DNA from: Chloroflexota bacterium
Lineage (GTDB): Bacteria > Chloroflexota > UBA11872 > UBA12225
NCBI GenBank assembly: GCA_016199265.1
Contig: JACQGX010000258.1
Span: forward strand, 1 to 38,232
Direction of reading: 5' to 3'
DNA: 38,232 nt
This document shows positions 9,650-29,987 of this stretch, one piece after another (within the stretch, counting starts at the first letter, position 1; each line of letters starts with the position of its first letter). The notes beneath the pieces are model-generated. The model did not search any database, was not told the origin of the DNA, and saw only the letters and a program-made list of their open reading frames with translations. The translations under genes were made by a program, and so were the position numbers.

Positions 9650-10397
9650 ACGTCAGCCGCGTAATCAGCCGCGCCGGCAAACCAGCTTCGCGCATCTTCT
9701 GTTGAATGGCTGCGACCGGGTACGTGACGCGGCGCAGGGTGAGTGTTGGGCGGCCGCCCGAGCCGGCAGAGGCGTAGAGCATATATGCCGCCGCCGGGTT
9801 GCCATCGCGCGGTTGGCCGACGCTCCCCGGGTTGATGATCAGCCGGTGCGCCTCGAGCGGAAACGGTACGTCTTCCGCCGGCACGATCGTCCGGTAGTTG
9901 GGTGGACGTTCGTCTGGTAGCGGCTTCTGGAAAATGAGCGGCACGTGCGTGTGCCCCACGAGGCAATACGGTGTCTGAAAGTACTCGAAGTTCAGCCGCG
10001 CGGCGCTGACGTGGGTCAGGTATTCCCAGACCGGCTCGCGCGGACTGCCGTGCACGATCGTGAACTCGCTCGAAGCACCGGCGGTCAGCACCTCGGGCAG
10101 GTGCTTCAGATACGCCTGGTGCTCAGGAGTGAGCTGGCCGCGCGTCCACAGCGCCGCCTCGCTCGCCTCCGGGTTGAACTCGGCGGTATCCATCGCGCCC
10201 GTACACGCACGATCGTGGTTGCCGGCGACGCACAGCGCGTCGCGCGCGCGCAACACGTCGATACACTCGTTCGGCTGCGGCCCGTATCCGACGACGTCCC
10301 CCAGGCACCACACCTGGTCCACTTCCCCGGCATCGGCGAGGACGGCTTCGAGGGCGTCGAGGTTCCCGTGAATGTCGGAGATAACGGCGCAGCGCAT
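9639..10397 (-). CDS. Metallophosphoesterase (YfcE/calcineurin-like)
   Basis: MRCAVISDIHGNLDALEAVL, WCLGDVVGYGPQP, AGNHD, VHGSP, GHTH motifs. Confidence 0.93.
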   Translation of the reverse strand: MRCAVISDIHGNLDALEAVLADAGEVDQVWCLGDVVGYGPQPNECIDVLRARDALCVAGNHDRACTGAMDTAEFNPEASEAALWTRGQLTPEHQAYLKHLPEVLTAGASSEFTIVHGSPREPVWEYLTHVSAARLNFEYFQTPYCLVGHTHVPLIFQKPLPDERPPNYRTIVPAEDVPFPLEAHRLIINPGSVGQPRDGNPAAAYMLYASAGSGGRPTLTLRRVTYPVAAIQQKMREAGLPARLITRLTYGW

Positions 10398-10458
10398 AGC
10401 GCGAGGTGGGGTTAGTGTACTCCAAGGGACCGGGGCGCGGCACCGGTACACTCACGAA

Positions 10459-11244
10459 ATGGTCGAAGCAAAGGCAGACTACGGCTGGTTGTGGCGGCGG
10501 CCTGGCCACCGGCCGCTCGTCGTGGCACACCGGGGGGCGAGCGGACTCGCGCCGGAAAACACGCTCGCCGCGTTTCGCCTGGCGCTTGAGGCCAGCGCTC
10601 CCGCCGTCGAGTGCGACGTCCACCTGAGCACCGACGGCGTGCCGGTCGTCATTCACGATGCGCAGGTGGACCGCACGACCTTCGGCTTCGGCAGCGTTGC
10701 GCTGCTCTCGTACGCCGCGGTGCGGCGGCTCGACGCCGGCTCGTGGTTCGGTGAGGCGTTTGCCGGCGAGCGAATCCCCACCCTCGACGAGGTGCTGGCG
10801 ACGTGCGCCGGCCGCGCGCGGGTCTTCGTCGAGCTCAAGGCCGGCGGTGGGACGGCACTCGTCGACGCTGCGCTGGCGGCGATCGCGCGCGTCTCGGGTA
10901 CCGAGATCGCCGTTATCTCTTTCGATCCGTCGATCGTGCGCGACGTTGCCACGCGCCGTCCGAGTCTGCCGGTTGGCTACCTCGTCTCTGCGGCCAAAGT
11001 CGCGGCAGCCGGTCCGGCCGCGACCAGCCGCCAGACCGTCGATCTCGGCGCCGGTTTCCTCTCACCGCAGCACACGGCGGCGAGCCCGGCCCTTGTCGAA
11101 GCCGCACATCGCGCCGGTCTGCCCGTCGGCGTCTGGACGGTCGACGATCCAGCCTTGCTCGAGCGCTTGGCGGCCCTCGGTGTCGACGCGATCACGACGA
11201 ACCGGCCCGAAATCGCGCTCCGCTTGCTCTCCGAGCGGCGCTAA
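10459..11244 (+). CDS. Glycerophosphodiester phosphodiesterase family protein
   Basis: VAHRGASGLAPENTLAAF, ECDVHLSTDGVPVVIHD, VFVELK, TTNRPE. Confidence 0.93.
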   Translation: MVEAKADYGWLWRRPGHRPLVVAHRGASGLAPENTLAAFRLALEASAPAVECDVHLSTDGVPVVIHDAQVDRTTFGFGSVALLSYAAVRRLDAGSWFGEAFAGERIPTLDEVLATCAGRARVFVELKAGGGTALVDAALAAIARVSGTEIAVISFDPSIVRDVATRRPSLPVGYLVSAAKVAAAGPAATSRQTVDLGAGFLSPQHTAASPALVEAAHRAGLPVGVWTVDDPALLERLAALGVDAITTNRPEIALRLLSERR

Positions 11245-11292
11245 CGCTTGCTAGAATGCGCGGGAACGCATGTGGGGGAAGGACCTATCAGC

Positions 11293-12048
11293 ATGAAACT
11301 TGCGCGAGTACAGACGGATACGGGCCCGGCGTGGGCGATTGTCGAGGGTGAGACAGTGTTCCGGCTGGAGGGGAGCCCCTTCGAGCACCCGACCAAGGGC
11401 GAGCGAATCGGCGACCTCGCCTCGACCAAGCTGCTGGCGCCGTGCCAGCCAACCAAGGTGGTGTGCATCGGGCTCAACTACCGGGCGCACGCCGCCGAGA
11501 GCGGGCAGGAAGTGCCCCCAGAACCGCTAATGTTCTTGAAACCACCGACGTCGGTCGTTGGCCCGGGTGAGGACGTCGTGTGGGCACCCGGCTCGGAGCG
11601 GATCGACTACGAAGCCGAGCTCGCGGTCGTCTTCAAGAAGCGGGCGAAGAACGTCGCGCCGGGCGCGTACAAAGACTACGTCCTGGGATACACCTGCGCC
11701 AACGACATCTCGGCGCGTGACTTCCAGCGCGGCGACGGCCAGTGGGCACGCGCCAAAGGGTCGGACACGTTTTGCCCGCTGGGCCCTTGGATCGAGACCG
11801 AGCTCGACGCCGGCAACGTGCGCATCACCGGCAAGCTCAACGGCGAGGTCCGGCAGGATAGCACCACCGCCGACCTGGCGTTCACTATCGAGCAGTTGAT
11901 CACCCACTTGACCAAGTACTTCACGATGGAGCCGGGTGACGTGCTCATCACCGGCACTCCCGCGGGCATCGGCCCAATGAACCCCGGCGACGAGTACGAG
12001 ATCACCATCGAAGGCATCGGCTCGCTCAAGAACCGAATCCGCAAGTAA
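11293..12048 (+). CDS. Fumarylacetoacetate hydrolase (FAH) family protein
   Basis: IGLNYRAHAAESG, LMFLKPPTSVVGPGE, DYEAELAVVF, VLGYTCANDISARDFQ, GDVLITGTPAGIGPM. Confidence 0.93.
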   Translation: MKLARVQTDTGPAWAIVEGETVFRLEGSPFEHPTKGERIGDLASTKLLAPCQPTKVVCIGLNYRAHAAESGQEVPPEPLMFLKPPTSVVGPGEDVVWAPGSERIDYEAELAVVFKKRAKNVAPGAYKDYVLGYTCANDISARDFQRGDGQWARAKGSDTFCPLGPWIETELDAGNVRITGKLNGEVRQDSTTADLAFTIEQLITHLTKYFTMEPGDVLITGTPAGIGPMNPGDEYEITIEGIGSLKNRIRK

Positions 12049-13188
12049 GTGCCCATCTACGCCCTCATCGCCGACGACTTGACCGGCGCGCTCGACGCCG
12101 GGGCAGGGTTCGCCCGCGCCGGACTGCGCGGCACGATGCCCTTCTCTGGGCTGCCGGAAGACGCCGGCGAGGCCGACGTGGTGTTGGTGAACACCACCTC
12201 ACGCGAGGGTAGGGCTGAGGAGGCGCGGCGGGCCGCGAAGAAGGCCGCCGCGCACCTGAGAGACGCGGGCATCCCCCGCGTCTACAAGAAAATCGATAGC
12301 GTCTTGCGCGGCTATCCCGGCGCCGAACTGGCCGGTGTGCTCGACGTGTACGGCGGGCGCGCCGCCGTCGCGCCGGCCTTTCCTGCCCAGGGGCGGACGA
12401 CTGCACGTGGAATCCAGTACGTCCACGGACAGCCGGTGTCGCCGTACGGCGGCGACCTGCGCGCTGCCCTGGGGGATGCGGCCGATCGCTGCGACGTTTT
12501 CGACGCCGAATCCGACGACGATCTCGCCCGTATCGCCGGCCACCTCGCGGCCCAGCCCGAGTACTGCGTCTGGTGCGGCACCGCTGGGCTGGCCAGGTAC
12601 GTGCCGGAAGCGCTGCAGCTCAAGCCGGGTCTGGAAGCTCGTGCGCTTCCGCCGCCGCGGGCGGAGCGCGTGGTCGTGATCGCCGGAACCGCGCATCCCA
12701 CTACCGCTGCCCAGATGAACTGCCTGCTCGCCGCCGGCTGGCAGCACGTGCGGCTCGACCTCCGTTCTGCGCTCGACGATGCGGCGCAGCCAGCCCTCCG
12801 TGAAGCCCTATCGCGATTTCCCTCGTCCGGCAGATTGCTTATCTCCACTATTGGCGGTCTCACCGTGGAGGAAGTGGCGGCGCTCCATGCCGGGCCCGCC
12901 GTCACCGGGGACCGGATTGTCGCGATGCTGCGGGCGGCGGCGTGCGCCTTGCGGCTCGAGCCGGGCACCGGCCTCATCATGACGGGCGGCGAGACCGCGT
13001 ACCAAGTCTGCCGCGCTTTGGGCGCCTTCGTCATTCACGTGACCGGCGAGGCGCTTCCCGGTATCCCCCTCGGCTGGCTCGAGCTGCCCCAAGGCACCTA
13101 CCCCGTCGCCACCAAATCCGGCGGTTTCGGCGTATCGGATGCCCTGCTCAGAACCGCCGACGCCTTGGTCATGCCACTACGTGACTGA
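12049..13188 (+). CDS. Four-carbon acid sugar kinase family protein (DUF1537, OtnK/DtnK-like)
   Basis: GTG start adjacent to the FAH stop; IADDLTGALDAGAGFARAG, YKKIDSVLRGYPG, TGGETA, GGFG near the C-terminus. Confidence 0.88.
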   Translation: MPIYALIADDLTGALDAGAGFARAGLRGTMPFSGLPEDAGEADVVLVNTTSREGRAEEARRAAKKAAAHLRDAGIPRVYKKIDSVLRGYPGAELAGVLDVYGGRAAVAPAFPAQGRTTARGIQYVHGQPVSPYGGDLRAALGDAADRCDVFDAESDDDLARIAGHLAAQPEYCVWCGTAGLARYVPEALQLKPGLEARALPPPRAERVVVIAGTAHPTTAAQMNCLLAAGWQHVRLDLRSALDDAAQPALREALSRFPSSGRLLISTIGGLTVEEVAALHAGPAVTGDRIVAMLRAAACALRLEPGTGLIMTGGETAYQVCRALGAFVIHVTGEALPGIPLGWLELPQGTYPVATKSGGFGVSDALLRTADALVMPLRD

Positions 13189-13212: not shown

Positions 13213-14166
13213 CTAGTCCGGCGCAATCACCTTGAGGCCGTGGGCGCTGAGCCGGCCGGCGATTTGCTGCATGTGCGCCAAGCTTGGCGTTTCGACCTCG
13301 GGCATCGTGTTTGCCTGCCCCAGGCCGAGGTATTTGGAGCCGGCCAGCCGATGATACGGCAGCAGTCGCACGGCCTCGATAGTGTGCAGCGATCCCAGGA
13401 ACTCCCCGGCTGCCTCAATGAACTCGCGCCCGTCGTTGATGGTGGGGACGATCACCATCCTGATCTCGATGGGGACGCCGTGATCGCCGAGCTTCCGCAA
13501 GTTATCCAGGATGAGACGGCTGGATGCGCCGGTGAGGTGCTTGTGGCGCTCGGCCGACATGTGCTTCACATCGTACAGCACCAGATCGACGAACGGCAGC
13601 GCCTGCTCGAATGCCTTCCATCGGACCTGGCCGCAGGTGTCCAGCGCGGTGTGAAACTCCTCCGCCTTGCATTGGCGCAGTACCGCGGTGGCGAACTCGG
13701 GTTGCAGTAGGGGCTCGCCGCCGGAAAGGGTGACCCCGCCGCCCGACGTGGCATAGAACGAGGCGTCTTCGCGTACCTGGGCCAGGACGTCGTCGACGGA
13801 CACTCGCCGCCCGACGACTTCCAGCGCGCCCGCATAGCAGACCTCGACGCACCGGCGATCAAGCTCGCAGCGACTCCGGTCGAGCCACCGCTCGCCGTCC
13901 GGTGTGACCTGCTGGGCCCCATGAGGGCACGCCTCGACGCACGCCAGGCACGCGATGCACCGCTGCGGGTGGAACATGATCTGCACATTGCGGCTGATCG
14001 ACTCCGGATTGTGGCACCAGGCGCACCGCAGCGGGCATCCCTTGAAAAACAGCACCGTGCGCACGCCGGGCCCGTCGTGCACGGCAAAGCGCTTGACGTC
14101 GAAGATCCAGCCCGTGACCGCCTCGGACGCGACGGTGTGGGACCCGGGACTTCGGTTAGAACCCAT
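13213..14166 (-). CDS. Glycyl-radical enzyme activating enzyme (radical SAM, PflA family with ferredoxin-like insert)
   Basis: FFKGCPLRCAWCHNPES (CxxxCxxC) and CIACLACVEACPHGAQ clusters; overlaps the GRE stop by 11 nt. Confidence 0.93.
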   Translation of the reverse strand: MGSNRSPGSHTVASEAVTGWIFDVKRFAVHDGPGVRTVLFFKGCPLRCAWCHNPESISRNVQIMFHPQRCIACLACVEACPHGAQQVTPDGERWLDRSRCELDRRCVEVCYAGALEVVGRRVSVDDVLAQVREDASFYATSGGGVTLSGGEPLLQPEFATAVLRQCKAEEFHTALDTCGQVRWKAFEQALPFVDLVLYDVKHMSAERHKHLTGASSRLILDNLRKLGDHGVPIEIRMVIVPTINDGREFIEAAGEFLGSLHTIEAVRLLPYHRLAGSKYLGLGQANTMPEVETPSLAHMQQIAGRLSAHGLKVIAPD

Positions 14167-16450
14167 AGGCGATCCGGCGGATATACTGATCCTGCTCTTC
14201 CTTCGACAGCGCGTTGAAGTACACGCTCCAGCCGGTCACCCGGATCTGCAGCGATTCGTAGCGTTCAGGGTGCCGTTGCGCGTCCCGCAAGGTATCGGCG
14301 TCGAACACGTTGAACTGCACCGCATAGCCGCCGCGCTGGAAGAACGTCTTCATCAGGGAGACAAACGCGCACAGACCGTCGTCGCCACGCACCGCCGTCG
14401 GATGCAGTGTCACGTCCAGCACCGAACCGTTCGGCGTCTCGCTGAAATCGAGCTTGGTGACCGAGCTCACGAGCCCGGTGACGCCGTTCTTGTCCACTCC
14501 GTAGGCGGCGCCAACGCCGGGCGCGAGCGATTCGTGCGCCTTACGTCCATCGGGTGTCGCCCCGGTGACGCGGCCGAGGCTCAGCGCCGCGGTAAGGGTA
14601 AACAACGCCGCCTGGCACGCTCCCCCGCGCCCGTTGCGGAACGAATGGACCTTCTGGCAGTAGTGATCGGCAATCACTCTCGCCATCGCGTCCGCGTCCG
14701 GTTCGCCGTTGCCCCATTTCGGCACGCGGTTGCGTAGGTAGAGGCGCATCGGCTCACGCCCTTCGAAGTTACTTGACATGGCCTCGAGGACTTCGTCGAG
14801 ACGGTAGCGCCGTTCGTCGAACACGACCCGCTTCAGCGCCAGCAACGAGTCGCAGGCATTCGCCAAGCCGGCCCCTACGAATCCAACCGAGTTGTAGCGT
14901 GGCCCACCCTCGCCCACGTCCTTGCCCCTGGCAAGGCAGTCGTCGATCGTGCCGGCAATCAGTGGCGAGGGGTTGATCTGCGGCCAAGCGCGCTCGGCTT
15001 CCTGAATGTGCCCGTGAATCCGGGTCAGGATAAAGTCGAGTTGGGTGAAGTATGCGTCGAGCAGCGCGTCAAAGCGCGCGAACTGGCGCGGATCCCCGGT
15101 GCGCGGGCCAGCTTTGTCGCCACTGAGCGGGTCGACGCCGTCATGCAGCGCCAGCTCGAGCGGCTTGGCGAGGTTGACCGTCACGTTCATCGTGCAGGCG
15201 GCCTCCTTGCCATCCACCGCCGGCTCGTAGCAGCCGATCGGCAGATACGTGCGCGCATCCTCGATCGACTTACCGCGCTTTACCAGAGCTGCGACCGCGG
15301 GGACGTCGTTCATGAGCACGAACGAGTTGTGCCCTTTCCGCACGAGGTCCGCCACGCGCGCAAAGAGCGCGTCGGGCGTCTCCGGCGTGACTCGGATCGA
15401 AAGCTTCGGATCCGGTGTATTCAACTCTTCGTAGGCATCCAAGGCGAGGTAGGTCAGGTCGTTGACGAGGACCGAGCCATCGGCGTGCTGCCCGGCGAAG
15501 ACGAAGTTCTTGCCGTTCGAGCGTCCTCTGGTGCGCGAGTACCACTTGAACCAGAAGAACTTGATCAACTCCTTGGCCTGCTCGCGAGTTAGGCGGCCCG
15601 CATCGACGTCGGCGCGATAGTAGGGGTACATCACGCGGTCGAAGTGGCCCATCGACCGCACGTTCTCCCCTTCCATCTCGATCAGCTCGTGCATCAGCCA
15701 GGCGAACTGCAGCGCCTCGCGGAACGTGCGCGGCCGGTGCGCCGGGACCTGGCGGCAGGCCGACGCGATGGCGCGCAGGCGGGCCTCGTGTGGTCGATGC
15801 GCGGGCATCATGCGTTCGGCCTGGCGAGCCAGACGGCCGGCGAAGGCCACCGCGGCGGCATAGACGATCTCCACCGCGTCGTAGAATGCCAGTTGCCCCT
15901 CGGTGGCGCCCTCCCCAAGTGCTGCGCGCGCCAGGCTCGCCTCCCGAATCAAGCCGGTCAGGCCGCCGGCCAGCATGTTTTCCCAGCCGGGTGAGATGTG
16001 GCCCAGATCCAGTCCGCCGGTAGGTGCGGCCGCGATGCCGATCTCACGTGCCCGTTTCAGCCACGCCGCTCCTTCGGCGATGGGGCCCCGTGTCGCCTCA
16101 TCGAGCCACCGTTTCTGCACCAGCCTGCGCAGGATATGGCCGTGGTTCAGCTTGTCGGCGAACCAATCCAGCGGGTCGACAGCGATCTGCCCGCGGGTGA
16201 CCACAAGGCGGAACGCGTGGGCCTTCTGCACGACCTTGGGCAGGTCGGCGTGTGCCGCCAAGTAGGTTTCGACCGCGCGCTCGAGTGCCTCGAGCGAAAG
16301 CCCGCTGTCCGGATCAAACGAAGTTTCGCGGAACTGCGCGAAGAGATGGTCGCGGTTCCCTTCAAACGTGCCCCAGACCTGCTCAGCCTCCGCTGTGCCC
16401 CACACTGCCTTCACTTGCTCAGTTTCCGCCGCAGCCGTCGCAACAACCAT
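14156..16450 (-). CDS. Glycyl-radical enzyme (PFL-like family), substrate unassigned
   Basis: C-terminal RVTGWSVYFN glycyl-radical motif, IGCYEPAV active-site Cys-x-Glu, partner activase downstream. Confidence 0.92.
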   Translation of the reverse strand: MVVATAAAETEQVKAVWGTAEAEQVWGTFEGNRDHLFAQFRETSFDPDSGLSLEALERAVETYLAAHADLPKVVQKAHAFRLVVTRGQIAVDPLDWFADKLNHGHILRRLVQKRWLDEATRGPIAEGAAWLKRAREIGIAAAPTGGLDLGHISPGWENMLAGGLTGLIREASLARAALGEGATEGQLAFYDAVEIVYAAAVAFAGRLARQAERMMPAHRPHEARLRAIASACRQVPAHRPRTFREALQFAWLMHELIEMEGENVRSMGHFDRVMYPYYRADVDAGRLTREQAKELIKFFWFKWYSRTRGRSNGKNFVFAGQHADGSVLVNDLTYLALDAYEELNTPDPKLSIRVTPETPDALFARVADLVRKGHNSFVLMNDVPAVAALVKRGKSIEDARTYLPIGCYEPAVDGKEAACTMNVTVNLAKPLELALHDGVDPLSGDKAGPRTGDPRQFARFDALLDAYFTQLDFILTRIHGHIQEAERAWPQINPSPLIAGTIDDCLARGKDVGEGGPRYNSVGFVGAGLANACDSLLALKRVVFDERRYRLDEVLEAMSSNFEGREPMRLYLRNRVPKWGNGEPDADAMARVIADHYCQKVHSFRNGRGGACQAALFTLTAALSLGRVTGATPDGRKAHESLAPGVGAAYGVDKNGVTGLVSSVTKLDFSETPNGSVLDVTLHPTAVRGDDGLCAFVSLMKTFFQRGGYAVQFNVFDADTLRDAQRHPERYESLQIRVTGWSVYFNALSKEEQDQYIRRIAYGF

Positions 16451-16619
16451 GTCCGTTCCTTCCCATTTCCTCGCGATCGAAACGAGTGGACCGGCTGGGG
16501 GCCCTTTCTAGGCGGCAGCCGGACCATCGGCGCATCGGCGTACCGTCACGGGCGCCTTGCCACCATGGACGATGCGCCGACGCTCCAGCCTGATGTAAGC
16601 CCTGCGCAACGACGGCGCA

Positions 16620-18605: not shown

Positions 18606-19375
18606 GACGCGGTGCCCGGCACGTCGAAGATCGTCTTGATGTTCTCCATCAACATCCGGTGATCCATGACTCGCGGTTGCACCGAGCGGATTACGCCCGC
18701 GGGGTCGACGAAAAACGTCGACGGCACGCCGAGCAACTTATACGTTTGCGCGGCCTCCTGCTTCGTATCGAGCATCACCGGGAAGGTGTACGAACCGACC
18801 CGTGGACTGCCCTCTTTCAGGTACGCACCCACGTCTTTGGCGCTGCTTTCGCCGTCGATGCTCACGGCGAGCACGACGAGCCCTTGATCGTTGTACTGCC
18901 GGTAGATCTGCTCCAGCTCGGGCATCTCCTCGCGGCACGGCGCGCACCACGTGGCCCAAAAGTTGAGTACGACCGCCTTGCCGCGGAACTGCTTGAGCTC
19001 GATCGGCTTGCCGCTGGGGTCCTTCAGCCGGATGTTCGGCGCCTCGTAATCGACCTTTGGCCCCACGCCCTTGGCCGGCCCGCCGCGGCTGACGACCCCG
19101 GCGGTGCTGCTGTCCCCGACGAGCGGCCGGGTCAATCCCATCCACACCAGCGGCGCCACCACGAGCGTCGCCCCGGCGCCAATGACCAAGCGGCGATGTA
19201 CGCGAAGCCACGTCGCGCGCTCCGGCGCTTCGACGCTGGCGTGGGCTTCATCCGTGGGACTGCGCTCCACCGACTGTGCGGGGGCCGCTCCGCGTGCCGT
19301 CGCTTCTCCTTGCATCTCGCTTGTCAGTGGCTGCGTACGCCTCACTCCTACCGAAGTATACGCGCCGCCACGCAA
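18602..19375 (-). CDS. TlpA/ResA-like membrane-anchored thiol-disulfide oxidoreductase (start uncertain)
   Basis: [24 protein letters not shown]; single N-terminal TM; overlaps the glutaredoxin gene by 4 nt. Confidence 0.9.
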
Positions 19376-19407
19376 TCCCCGGATGTGGCTCTACCCCGGA
19401 TGGACAC

Positions 19408-19437
19408 GAAAAAAGGGCGACGCATGCGTCGCCCTTT
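19408..19437 (-). terminator. Rho-independent terminator downstream of groEL
   Basis: Perfect palindrome gggcgacgcatgcgtcgccc followed by TTTTTT on the minus strand. Confidence 0.88.
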
Positions 19438-19495
19438 CCCTTCGCCCCAGCACCAGAAGCCACTGCCAACCGGCTACCGAGTACCGACTACTGGC

Positions 19496-21127
<1,632 letters not shown>

Positions 21128-21205
21128 CTAACCTCCTGCTTCGTTGGGATTCCTGCGGTGTGCTTACCTGTGCTACACAGGCGGTGCTACACAGGCGGTG
21201 CTACA

Positions 21206-21292
21206 GACGAACGACGAAGGACGACTGACGAGCGTTCGCTTCCGTGGCTCTCTTCCGTCGTTCGTCGTTCGTCTCGTCTACGTGTCCGTCTA
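21206..21292 (-). repeat. Stop-anchored heptamer hairpin (GACGAAC)
   Basis: gacgaacgacgaa (21206-21218) and ttcgtcgttcgtc (21261-21273) perfectly inverted; follows the TAG of the 72-aa ORF. Confidence 0.85.
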
Positions 21293-21508
21293 GTTGTCCG
21301 ACAGCTTGCCCTGATCGATGAGCCAGCGGATGAAGTCCTGCCGCTTATCAATTGGGAAGTAGTCGCTACGCTCGCCGCCAGCGACCGCGCGGCGCAGACG
21401 GACCAGACGCTCGTGCTGCTCGACGGAAAACTCGTCGAGCAACACGGCCACGTCGGCCACGTCGGCCATCATGGTCGTCTCATCGGCCATCGTCGTCTCG
21501 TTAGTCAT
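21290..21508 (-). CDS. Small 72-aa protein of unknown function, between the CIRCE promoter and groEL
   Basis: ORF co-directional with groEL; acidic N-terminus, basic middle, FIRWLIDQGKLSDN end. Confidence 0.55.
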   Translation of the reverse strand: MTNETTMADETTMMADVADVAVLLDEFSVEQHERLVRLRRAVAGGERSDYFPIDKRQDFIRWLIDQGKLSDN

Positions 21509-21568
21509 GCGCTGAAACTCGTATGTTGGTGCCCCGGCGGATTGGCGAATAGTGCCTTGTCCGCACGA

Positions 21569-21598
21569 AGTATAGGACGGTCATTAGCACTCCGTCAA
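21569..21598 (-). promoter_or_regulatory. Sigma70-like promoter TTGACG-18 bp-TATACT reading toward groEL
   Basis: Reverse strand AGTTGACGGAGTGCTAATGACCGTCCTATACTTCG. Confidence 0.7.
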
Positions 21599-21610
21599 CT
21601 AGACTGCTAA
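21584..21610. promoter_or_regulatory. CIRCE element (HrcA operator), one mismatch
   Basis: TTAGCACTC-N9-GACTGCTAA versus consensus TTAGCACTC-N9-GAGTGCTAA. Confidence 0.9.
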
Positions 21611-24589: not shown

Positions 24590-25039
24590 TTACTCCGGCT
24601 GCCGCCTTCGCTCGGCCGCCGCCTCACGCACCTTCCGCACGATCTCGTCGAGCGACGCCCCGGGGCCGAACACCTCGGCGATGCCCATCGCCTTGATCGC
24701 CGGGACGTCATCTTGCGGAATGATGCCGCCGGCGAAGACGATCACGTCGTCGACGCCGCGGGCGCGGAGCGCCTCCATGATCCGGGGGAATAGCGCCATG
24801 TGCGCGCCCGAATGGATCGATAGGCCAATGACGTCGACGTCCTCTTGTAGCGCCGCCTCCGCGATCATTTCCGGCGTCTGCCGGATACCGGTATAGATCA
24901 CCTCCATCCCGGCGTCGCGCAGCGCCCGCGCCACTACCTTCGCGCCGCGATCGTGCCCGTCGAGCCCCGGCTTGGCGACCAACACCCGAATGGGCCGCTC
25001 GTCGACCGTGGTCTCGGTTTTCTCGTCGGTCTCAACCAT
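24590..25039 (-). CDS. Cobalamin-binding small subunit of methylmalonyl-CoA mutase
   Basis: [31 protein letters not shown]; DxHxxG B12 motif; [13 protein letters not shown]. Confidence 0.93.
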
Positions 25040-25094
25040 TTGCTCAGCTCACACCAGTGTCCCCCAAACGCCGCCGCACCACCCGCTCGCCCGC

Positions 25095-25898
25095 TCACTC
25101 TCCCCTAAACCGCGGCGCCCGCTTCTCCAAGAACGCGGCGATCCCCTCGTCCTTGTCCGCCGTGCCGAAGCATTGGCTGAACAGGTCGATCTCGACGCCG
25201 TTGGCCTCGCGCAACGGCAGATCGCGTCCCAGGTGCATCGCTCGCTTGGCATAGCTCACCGCCAGCGGCGGGAGCGTGGCGAACTGCGCCGCGAACTCCA
25301 GCGCGTGCCCGAGCAAGAGTTCGCGCGGCACCGCACCGTTGGCGAGTCCGAAGCGGACGGCATCCGCCGCGCCGATCGACCGCCCCGTGAGCACCATCTC
25401 AGCCGCCCGCGTCACACCGATCAGCCGGGGCAGGCGCTGCGTGCCGCCCCAGCCGGGGATCAGCCCCAATCTGATCTCTGGCTGGCCGATCTGTGCCTCA
25501 TCGGCGATGACTCGGAAGTCGCACGCCAGTGCGAGCTCGCAGCCGCCGCCCAGCGCCAATCCGTTGATCGCCGCGATTGCCGGCAGACGAACGCCTTCGA
25601 CTTGCTGGAACACGTCGTGTCCGAGCTGCGCCCACCGGCGCCCATCGTCGACACTCATCGTGCGCATCTGCCGGATGTCCGCACCGGCGCAGAACGCTCG
25701 CTCGCCCGCGCCGGTGATCACCAGACACCGCAGCATGCTATCCTGCGCCGCCGCGCCCAGCGCCTCACGCAGCAGGTTCAGCACTTCCTCGTTCAGCGCA
25801 TTGAGCGCCTGCGGCCGGTTCAACGTCAACACCGCCGTCGCGCCCTCCCGCCGAATCAGCAGCGATCCCTCTGTAACTTCCTTCACCTCATTCTCCAC
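25095..25898 (-). CDS. Enoyl-CoA hydratase/isomerase family protein
   Basis: [43 protein letters not shown]. Confidence 0.93.
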
Positions 25899-25954
25899 AC
25901 ACGTTTTCTGTCACCATATCGGCGTTCATCGGCGGTTTCATTCCCTTTCCTCGG

Positions 25955-27730
25955 TCAGAGGACGGGCATTTCCTGGTATTCGCCGAACACGCCCCGCAGC
26001 ACATCGCAGATCTCGCCGAGCGTCGCGTACGCCCTCACCGCGTCCAGAATCGGCAGCATCAGGTTATCACGACCACGCGCGGCGCGCTCCAGCTCGCGCA
26101 AGCAGCGCGCCACCTCGGCCGGAGAACGCTCTCGCCGTACGCGGCGCAACCGGTCGATCTGCCGTACTTCGCTCGCCTCGTCGACCCTCAGCAGCGGCAC
26201 GCCGAGCGTCTCCTCGGTGACGTACTCGTTGACGCCGACGATGATCTGCCGCTTGGCTTCCACGGCCTGCTGGTACCGAAACGCGGCCTCGGCGATCTCG
26301 CGCTGGAAGAACCCGGCCTCGATCGCGGGTATGACGCCGCCGTACTGCTCGATCCGCGCGAAGTACTCGTCGCAGCCGCGCTCCATCTGGTCGGTTAGCC
26401 ACTCGACGTAGTAACTGCCACCCAGAGGGTCGACCGTATCGGGCACACCGGTCTCGTGCAGGATGATCTGCTGCGTGCGCAGCGCGATCTGGACCGCCTT
26501 CTCCGATGGCAGCGCCAGCGCCTCGTCGAGCGAGTTGGTATGCAGCGACTGCGTGCCACCCATTACCGCCGCCAGCGCCTGCATCGCGATCCGCACGACG
26601 TTGTTCTCCGGCTGTTGCGCGGTACACGTCACGCCGGCCGTTTGTGTGTGAAACCGCAGCCACAGGCTGCGCGGGTTCTGCGCGCCGTAACGCTCGCGCA
26701 GCTCGCGCGCCCAGATGCGCCGCGCTGCTCGATACTTCGCGACCTCCTCAAAGAAGTTGTTGTCGGCGTTGAAGAAGAAGCTGATCCGCGGCGCGAAGTC
26801 GTCGATCTGTAACCCACGCTCCAGCGCAGCCTCGACGTATGCCTTCCCATCGGCGAGGGTGAACGCCAGCTCCTGCAGCGCCGTGCTCCCCGCCTCGCGG
26901 ATGTGGTACCCGCTCACCGAGATCGTGTTCCAGCGGGGCAAATGCCTCGTTCCGAACTCGATCGTGTCGACCACCAGGCGCAGGTGCGGCCGCGGCGGAA
27001 AGATCCACTCCTTCTGCGCGATGAACTCTTTGAGGATGTCGTTCTGGATCGTGCCGCCGAGTTGCTCCATCGCGATGCCGCGCTTCTCGGCGGCCGCGAT
27101 GTACATCGCCCAGATCACCGCCGCCGGCCCGTTGATTGTCATCGACGTCGTGATCTGATCGACCGGGATTCCGTCGAAAAGGAGCTCCATATCTGCGAGC
27201 GACGAGACGGCGACGCCGCACTTGCCGAACTCGCCCATGGCAAGCGGGTGATCGGTATCGTAGCCGTAGAGCGTCGGCAGGTCAAAGGCGACCGAAAGCC
27301 CCGACTCGCCGTGCGCCAGCAGGTACTTGAACCGGGCGTTGGTCTCCTCGGCGGTGCCGAAGCCGGCGAAGATCCGCATCGTCCATGGCTTGCCCCGATA
27401 GCCGGTGGCGTGGACGCCGCGCGTGAATGGGTACTCGCCGGGCAATCCCAGATCGCGTAGATAGTCCTGATCGGCCACGTCGAGGGGGGTGTGCACCCCG
27501 GCAACGGGGAACCCAGAATACGTGGCCCGCTCGACCTCACCGCCCAGTTGCCGCCGCGCCTGCTCCTTCCACGCAGCGAAGCGCGCCGCCAGCGCGCCAT
27601 CGTTCCCCCTCGCCCCTTGGGCGCCTCCCAAGCCACCGCTCCCCCTCTCCCCTTGTGGGAGAGAGGGCTGGGGGGTGAGGGGTTCCCCCTCCTGCCGTGT
27701 CACCCCATCGTGTCGCTGCCTCGTCGCCAT
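25955..27730 (-). CDS. Methylmalonyl-CoA mutase large subunit
   Basis: [61 protein letters not shown]; Tyr and Arg at positions equivalent to MCM Y89/R207. Confidence 0.93.
27626..27690 (-). repeat. REP-like CCCTCACCCCC...CCCTCTCCC-acaa-GGGGAGAGGG repeat inside the mutase 5' coding region
   Basis: Minus strand GAACCCCTCACCCCCCAGCCCTCTCTCCCACAAGGGGAGAGGGGGAGC, translated [17 protein letters not shown]. Confidence 0.75.
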
Positions 27731-27813
27731 AACGGCCTCCTCAGGCTGCATCTCTACCTTTACTCTGCGCAACTCTGCGCCCCCGCTCTGCGTCTCCGCG
27801 GTCAATCCCCGGC

Positions 27814-28692
27814 CTACCCCCTGCGACCACCGTACTCATAGAACCCCACGCCGGTCTTGCGGCCCAGCCGGCCGGCGGCGACCATGCGGCGGAGCAGCGG
27901 GCACGGGCGGTACTTATCGTCGCCCAGATCGCGATGCAGTACCTCGAGAATGTGCAGGCAGACATCGAGCCCAATGAAGTCGGCCAGCTCCAGCGGTCCC
28001 ATCGGGTGGTTCATCCCCAGCTTCATCACCTGGTCGATCGCCTCCTTCTCCGCCACGCCCTCCATCAGCGTAAAAAACGCCTCGTTGAGCATCGGCAGCA
28101 GGAGACGATTGGAGACAAACCCCGGATAGTCGTTCACCACCACCGGCGTCTTCCCCAACCGCTGCGCCAGGGCGACAATTGCTTGTGTTGTCGCCTCCGA
28201 CGTGAGCTGTCCCCTAACCACCTCCACCAGCTTCATAACCGGCACCGGATTGAAGAAGTGCATCCCGAGCACCCGCTCCGGCCCCGAAACGGCCGAGGCG
28301 AGCGCCGTAATCGAGATGCTCGACGTGTTCGATGCCAGCAGCGCCGTCTCCGGCAGCACGTGCGCTGCCTGCGCGAACACCGCCTGCTTTGCGGTGAGGT
28401 CCTCGGTTACTGCCTCGATCAAGAGCTCGTGGCCAATCGCGGCGTCGATCTTCGTCTTTGGCCGGATGAGGGCGAGCGACTGATCGCGCGCCCGTGCCGT
28501 CAGGCTGCCTTTCTGCACCAGGCGGTCGAGCGATCGCTCGATCGCCGCCTGTGCCCGCAGCAACTGGCTCGTGTCGACGTCGACGAGATCGACCTCGATC
28601 CCGGCGGTCGCCAGCACTTGGGCGATGCCGCTCCCCATCGTCCCCGCGCCCACCACGGTCGCGCGATTGATGTCCCGTTCCGTGTCAGCCAT
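27814..28692 (-). CDS. 3-hydroxyacyl-CoA (3-hydroxybutyryl-CoA) dehydrogenase
   Basis: [63 protein letters not shown]. Confidence 0.95.
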
Positions 28693-28695
28693 TAG

Positions 28696-28754
28696 AAGCC
28701 CTCACCCCCAACTGGTGCCCTCACCTTACCACGCTTCCACAGGGAGAGGGAGCC
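28696..28754 (+). repeat. Degenerate second copy of the CCCTCACCCCC...GGGAGAGGG REP-like repeat
   Basis: gaagccctcacccccaactggtgccctcaccttaccacgcttccacagggagagggagcc. Confidence 0.5.
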
Positions 28755-28769
28755 GCCTCCTGCCACGCC

Positions 28770-29987
28770 TCACGCTTCACGCTCGACCGCGATCGCAAAC
28801 GCCTCCCCGCCTCCCAGGCACGCAGCAGCGATTCCCCTCCGGCTGCCGCGGCGGCGCAGCGCATAGAGCAGCGTCGTCAGCAGCCGCGCGCCGCTGCACC
28901 CCAGCGGGTGCCCGAGGGCGATTGCGCCGCCGTAAATGTTGATGCGCTCGGTGTCCCACGCGAGCAGCTTGCCGTCGGCCACCATCTGCGCGGCGAACGC
29001 CTCGTTGACTTCCAGCAGGTCGTAGTCGTCGAGCGTCGTATCGGTCTTTTTGAGCAGTTGCCGGATCGTCGGCACCGGCGCCTCAAAGAGCCACAGTGGA
29101 TCGAGCGCGGCGTTCGCGCTCGCGACGTAGCGCGCCAGCGGCTGCACGCCAAGCTCTTTTGCTTTGCGGCGGCTCGTCAGCACGAGCGCGGCGGCGCCGT
29201 CGGCGATCTGCGACGAATTGCCGGCCGTGACGCAGCCATCCTTGGCAAACACCGGTTTGAGCCCGCGCAGCGCCTCCTCCGACGTGTCTGCGCGGGGGCA
29301 CTCGTCGGTCTCGACCACCGTTGGTCCGCGTCGCCCGGGAACCTCAACCGGCACGATCTCGTCTTTGAACATGCCGGCGCCAATTGCCTCGATCGCGCGT
29401 CGGTGGCTGCGCAGGCTCCACGCATCCTGCTCTTCGCGCGAGGCGCCGTGCTTTTCGGCGATCGCCTCGGCCGACAGCCCCATGTGGTGCCCTTCCCACG
29501 CGCACCACAGGCCATCGTGGATCATGTGATCGACGAGCTTGGCGTCGCCCATCTTATGGCCGGTCCGGCTGCCCATCAGCAGGTGAGGCGCGTTGCTCAT
29601 GCTCTCCATGCCGCCGGCCACCATCACCTCGGCTTCGCCCAGCCGGAGATGCTGCGCCGCGAGCGCCATCGCCGCCAGGCCGCTGCCGCACACCTTGTTC
29701 ACCGTGAGCGCAGGCACCGTCGGTGGCATCCCTGCCTTGAGCGCCGCCTGGCGCGCCGGTGCCATCCCCAACCCCGCCGGCAGCACGTTGCCCATGATCA
29801 GCCCGTCCACCTGCTCCGGCGCGACACCGGCCCGTTCGAGCGCACCCTTGATCGCCACGCCACCCAGCTCAGTGGCGCTTAGGCTTGAGAGTCCGCCCAA
29901 GAACCTACCGACCGGCGTACGCGCCGCCGAGACGACTACCACATCGACATCTGAGAGCTCCGCCGCATTCGTGGTCATAAGAAACAC
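28770..29987 (-). CDS. Acetyl-CoA C-acetyltransferase (thiolase)
   Basis: NKVCGSGLAAMALA, GGMESMSNAPHLL, NEAFAAQ, GGAIALGHPLGCSGARLL. Confidence 0.95.
   Translation of the reverse strand: MFLMTTNAAELSDVDVVVVSAARTPVGRFLGGLSSLSATELGGVAIKGALERAGVAPEQVDGLIMGNVLPAGLGMAPARQAALKAGMPPTVPALTVNKVCGSGLAAMALAAQHLRLGEAEVMVAGGMESMSNAPHLLMGSRTGHKMGDAKLVDHMIHDGLWCAWEGHHMGLSAEAIAEKHGASREEQDAWSLRSHRRAIEAIGAGMFKDEIVPVEVPGRRGPTVVETDECPRADTSEEALRGLKPVFAKDGCVTAGNSSQIADGAAALVLTSRRKAKELGVQPLARYVASANAALDPLWLFEAPVPTIRQLLKKTDTTLDDYDLLEVNEAFAAQMVADGKLLAWDTERINIYGGAIALGHPLGCSGARLLTTLLYALRRRGSRRGIAAACLGGGEAFAIAVEREA

Follow-up and report, generated by a model that had tools for sequence, protein, structure and literature searches.

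The eliminases among the glycyl-radical enzymes (GREs) conserve a Cys-x-Glu motif (PMC7077986; PMC8473560) and share no other strictly conserved sequence outside their Cys and Gly loops (PMC7077986), while a common beta-1 site is filled by His160 in HypD, Asp216 in CutC and Gln193 in IslA (PMC8473560). The described systems with which we compare the present locus are the 1,2-propanediol and B12-independent glycerol dehydratases (PDB 5i2a/5i2g, 9rco and 1r8w; 9rco is a 1,2-propanediol dehydratase by its entry title), HypD, Archaeoglobus fulgidus PFL2 (AfPFL2, PDB 2f3o) and E. coli PflD and YbiW (PDB 8yjo and 8id7). Here we analyse a window of 38,232 nt of Chloroflexota DNA (the whole stretch under study), in which a GRE, an oxygen-sensitive radical enzyme, is encoded next to a radical-SAM activase. 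At a probability of roughly 0.6, judged from sequence comparison and a predicted structure, the pair would consist of a GRE eliminase, likely a radical dehydratase acting on a polyol- or sugar-type substrate, and the activase dedicated to it.

The GRE gene (P0001; 14156–16450, minus strand) is an intact ORF of 764 aa with an ATG start and a TAA stop, and a ribosome-binding-like site, GGAAGGAA, can be read from the sequence 5 nt before the ATG (16456–16463, minus strand). These coordinates and the motifs GCYEP and RVTGW, as given in the original prediction, are borne out by the ORF call and by an alignment of 14 members of the family described below. The protein matches the Pfam PFL-like (E=5.8e-130) and Gly_radical (E=6e-23) domains far past chance level, and with these domains, a catalytic Cys and a radical Gly it has the features of the GRE family by alignment and profile. 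Its Cys loop, YLPIGCYEPAVDGKEAACTMN, carries C407 of GCYEP (codon 15230–15232, minus strand), which aligns with C433 of glycerol dehydratase (GD) and C434 of HypD and is invariant in 14/14 members, and E409, the Glu of the Cys-x-Glu eliminase motif (15224–15226, minus strand), which aligns with GD E435 and HypD E436. The Gly loop, QIRVTGWSVYF, holds the predicted radical residue G740 (14231–14233, minus strand), invariant and aligned with GD G763 and HypD G765. H151 (15998–16000, minus strand) aligns with GD H164; a His is also found here in AfPFL2, PflD and YbiW, and the position is invariant in the 33 GREs of a second alignment (A2).

The activase (P0002; 13213–14166, minus strand), a radical-SAM glycyl-radical activating enzyme of 317 aa, scores 341 bits against TIGR02494 (cut-off 174) and carries the CX3CX2C cluster motif (C44, C48 and C51; 14014–14037, minus strand) in invariant columns. 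Its 5′ end overlaps the 3′ end of the GRE gene by exactly 11 nt (14156–14166, minus strand, read from the coordinates), as the proposal of translational coupling had it; the overlap and the TIGR02494 score mark P0002 as the cognate activase, which would form the glycyl radical at G740. Orthologues adjoin the GRE in six SAR202/Dehalococcoidia loci and in genome G177, and no activase was found adjoining the GRE in relatives L008, L009, L033, L035 and L036. Activases unlinked to the family GREs may serve other GREs; a search for pathway genes beside them gave nothing. The second ferredoxin-like motif of the activase has three Cys (C-x5-C-x3-C) in the window and in the six SAR202/Dehalococcoidia orthologues, and four Cys are kept in the G177 activase and in the other activases compared.

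A scan of genome contigs and about 960 genomes gave 13 relatives of the window GRE at 53–69 % identity (a family of 14 with the window protein), hosted by SAR202/Dehalococcoidia, Anaerolineae, other Chloroflexota, a Poribacteria MAG and G177, which belongs to the window's own phylum. The family is rare, with 2/400 genomes in the sampled phylum, 6/247 in a sample of the SAR202 order and 4/249 in a sample of the class of G404. GCYEP, H151, R265, N312-G313, E409 and G740 are invariant in all 14 members, K302 is likewise invariant and lies, as do R265 and N312-G313, close to the pocket strands, and the active-site signature of the family is GHISPGW, EGExVRS, NGKN, YLPIGCYEPAVxGK and RVTGW. In the two deepest members RVAGY stands in place of RVTGW, so within the family the Trp that follows the radical Gly belongs to the inner clade. 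The original prediction had regarded this Trp as unusual, which it is not, since PDB 2f3o has RVAGWSAYF and a Chloroflexota GRE clade has RMGGWSAYF; both rule it out as a mark of novelty. That clade, itself uncharacterized (L016, L053, L054 and L055; SNCWET Cys loop), has members in three SAR202/Dehalococcoidia genomes besides the genome of the window. The Tyr of GCYEP, to which attention had also been drawn, is indeed specific to the family among the sequences compared, but GREs differ in the middle residue of CxE (V, I, S or W), so that it is by itself no sign of a new reaction.

We built a FastTree phylogeny from the family, paralogues encoded in the same genomes and seven references, namely five PDB sequences together with PflD and YbiW of E. 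coli. The family members group as a single clade with full support (1.0) and a long stem (0.62); the seven references sit together in a clade to which the family does not belong. Next to the family stands another uncharacterized clade (support 0.85), and some of the deep branches have weak support. Clustering with a characterized GRE, the outcome that the original prediction had named as counting against it, was not found in this tree of seven references. Judged by these sequences, the family does not nest with the glycerol, propanediol or hydroxyproline dehydratases, PflD, YbiW or AfPFL2, and relative to them it appears to be a separate subfamily; from CutC, IslA, HpsG and the decarboxylases, none of them in the tree, it is set apart by profile scores and weaker pairwise matches only. 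Some paralogues had been taken for radical-less homologues from a regular-expression search, a reading dropped once the alignment showed the Gly to be present.

No NCBIfam equivalog cut-off is reached, or even approached, by the window GRE. The best equivalog match is HypD (NF043068; 406 bits, cut-off 1100), HpfG gives 365 bits (cut-off 1000), and the scores for CutC, HpfG/HpsG, PflD, PFL, HPAD and indoleacetate decarboxylase each fall below half of the cut-off; the subfamily model TIGR01774 (PFL2/glycerol dehydratase, PFL2-3) gives 470 bits, below its curated cut-off of 678. The top PDB sequence matches are propanediol dehydratase (384 bits), glycerol dehydratase (367), AfPFL2 (353), 9rco (352) and HypD (339); isethionate sulfite-lyase gives 232 bits by phmmer, IslA itself being outside the alignment in which H151 is matched to GD H164. 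AfPFL2 shares the CxE motif and the Trp after the radical Gly with the window GRE, but is only 33 % identical to it, has GCVEI where the window has GCYEP and stands apart in the tree. A literature search found no paper on this subfamily. The family is a compact, testable, conserved and uncharacterized GRE subfamily, new but of the familiar GRE-eliminase type; its active-site signature is fixed, and its hosts are uncultured marine and sediment bacteria.

We place the enzyme with the eliminases on the strength of its Cys-x-Glu motif, the alignment of His151, its fold and its top PDB matches. The predicted fold comes from a deeper AlphaFold2 model (mean pLDDT 91.2, pTM 0.90), which replaced an earlier one from 14 sequences whose active-site loops were of low confidence; the highest-ranking Foldseek matches of the deeper model are propanediol dehydratase, glycerol dehydratase and HypD. 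The catalytic Cys, Glu and beta-1 His are retained in the alignment, and the invariance of CxE in 14 members agrees with the earlier view of an eliminase-type layout rather than that of PFL. A His at the beta-1 site would favour a dehydratase, since HypD has His160 where CutC has Asp216 and IslA Gln193, and H151 would accordingly fit a dehydratase better. In the mechanism that we envisage, the radical-SAM cluster of the activase would generate the radical on G740, which would pass to C407 as a thiyl radical; C407 would abstract hydrogen from a substrate carbon bearing a hydroxyl, E409, tuned by H151, would accept the hydroxyl proton, the adjacent group (most likely OH) would be eliminated, and return of the hydrogen would yield an aldehyde, a ketone or a deoxy product. 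The comparison shows sequence, predicted fold, family conservation and coupling to the activase; the elimination chemistry and the substrate class are inferred, the GRE probably removing water from a polyol- or sugar-type compound.

The substrate-binding residues known from glycerol dehydratase and HypD have been lost. Pocket positions were read from the sequence alignment, not from coordinates. For GD we take the substrate residues to be H281, S282, D447 and Y339. In the window S282 is V264, D447 is M421 (T in two members), Y339 is G313 and H281 is N263, at a variable position; in addition F333 is T307 and Y640 is F617 (Y in two members). In the known eliminases the loop ahead of G313 (beta-2/beta-3) is longer by about twelve residues. 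Of the HypD residues, D278 is N263 (again the variable position), D339 is N312, F340 is G313, Y450 is T424 and T645 is L619; all five are retained in a HypD-like GRE of G403, which serves as the positive control of the alignment. The substrate is most likely a polyol, sugar, sugar acid or sugar phosphate, and it appears to differ from what the reference enzymes compared act on. We suggest more tentatively, at somewhat short of even odds, that the family acts on a substrate new to GREs, for example a polyol or cyclitol derived from glycerophosphodiesters or from plant or algal polymers; if this were true, poorly understood Chloroflexota such as SAR202 would gain an anaerobic route to such a compound. 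Since many GREs have no assigned function, the value of the discovery hinges on the substrate, whose assignment would expose an anaerobic carbon-use step in the host bacteria and extend the known eliminase reactions.

The gene neighbourhood bears on the substrate class. The window operon apparently comprises only GRE and activase, beside which no aldehyde-handling gene was recognized, and a convergent group of three genes encodes a glycerophosphodiester phosphodiesterase (GDPD; 10372–11244, plus strand; PF03009, E=1.3e-44), a possible functional neighbour, an FAA-hydrolase family protein and a four-carbon-acid sugar kinase homologue. A GDPD recurs close to the family GRE in three other loci: L030 and L031 have the order GRE, activase, alpha/beta hydrolase, GDPD on one strand, and in L032 a GDPD and a ribulose-phosphate epimerase are convergent to the activase. 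GDPD thus lies within about 6 kb of the GRE in three independent lineages of eight, at a density of 0–4 GDPD genes per genome (ten genomes), for which the chance is about 8e-6 under uniform placement with GDPD chosen post hoc. This link is a lead and not a test, because of that choice, because the collapsing of loci into eight lineages was our own and because the GDPDs of the three lineages are only 31–52 % alike, in comparisons covering part or the whole of the proteins. Other neighbours are mostly of sugar and sugar-acid families and vary by locus (MR_MLE, IlvD/EDD, Gfo/Idh/MocA, xylose-isomerase-like, apiosidase, GH4, GH39 and ribulose-phosphate epimerase), and across the family loci no consistent operon partner was found past the activase. 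An inositol pathway drawn from the Gfo/Idh and xylose-isomerase-like neighbours was dropped, these families being too broad. Two CoA-transferases lie near the GRE in three SAR202/Dehalococcoidia loci and were not encountered elsewhere; as pathway evidence they were set aside for that reason.

Within the sugar-type substrates, a GRE acting on a sugar phosphate in the manner of YbiW or PflD, whose PDB entries carry bound anhydrohexitol 6-phosphates, is an unlikely alternative. An anion could be bound by the invariant R265, K302 and N312-G313, which lie close to the pocket strands; kinase, epimerase and phosphatase functions are encoded in the surroundings, and PflD, too, has Gly at the position of GD Y339. 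PflD and YbiW resemble the window GRE in GRE fold, CxE motif and an adjacent activase gene; however, identity is only 31 % to PflD and 28 % to YbiW, both fall in a separate clade, and the PflD model (PRK09983) gives 356 bits, far below its cut-off of 1109.

We regard it as rather improbable that the enzyme has diverged from the glycerol or 1,2-propanediol dehydratases in sequence while keeping their substrate. These dehydratases are its best PDB matches by sequence and by fold (TM about 0.85), sharing Cys-x-Glu, the beta-1 His and the Gly loop, and a nearby GDPD could supply glycerol compounds. Yet identity is 34–38 % in the aligned part, S282, D447, Y339, F333 and Y640 of GD are replaced and the H281 position is variable, the beta-2/beta-3 loop is shorter, and GD, propanediol dehydratase and 9rco group together in the tree, away from the family. 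Moreover, no shell genes of bacterial microcompartments (BMC; PF00936) were found in ten genomes, the E. coli and Synechococcus controls being positive and the window genome 77 % complete.

We give still less weight to an amino-acid or amine substrate, as for a hydroxyproline-type dehydratase or a C–N lyase such as CutC. HypD, alike in fold and CxE motif and in a GKEA stretch past the Cys loop, is the best equivalog match, but it is 33 % identical, the scores are far under the cut-offs (for CutC 307 bits against 1050), the HypD catalytic residues D278 and D339 and substrate residues F340, Y450 and T645 are replaced where the G403 enzyme retains them, and H151 occupies the site at which CutC reportedly has Asp216. 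The shorter beta-2/beta-3 loop and the differing pocket residues could allow another type of reaction, and the CoA-transferases recall fumarate-addition pathways, but a decarboxylase, fumarate-adding enzyme or acyl lyase is the least probable reading, given Cys-x-Glu with its aligned His, the poorer matches to BSS, MasD, HPAD and PFL in both fold and sequence, and the lack of recognizable small subunits nearby.

Further GRE-like genes and window genes were seen. In L034 a second, partial GRE-like ORF (10628–12367, plus strand; 28 % identity, GCNWP Cys loop) directly follows a family member in tandem, overlapping its end. The window's genome has another GRE homologue (L015, 123–2729, plus strand) that contains GCVETI; its Gly loop, ARMYGQSLYF, is odd, and the local alignment with the query ends ahead of it. 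Elsewhere in the window, a 983-aa ORF (18659–21610, plus strand) has no Pfam match at E<=0.001 and no NCBIfam match, and a run at 24590–29987 (minus strand) encoding methylmalonyl-CoA mutase (two separate subunits), enoyl-CoA hydratase, 3-hydroxyacyl-CoA dehydrogenase and thiolase is ordinary acyl-CoA metabolism. A Poribacteria MAG (G402, 5.6 Mb) is unusually rich in GREs, with eleven match rows, some of them pieces of one gene.
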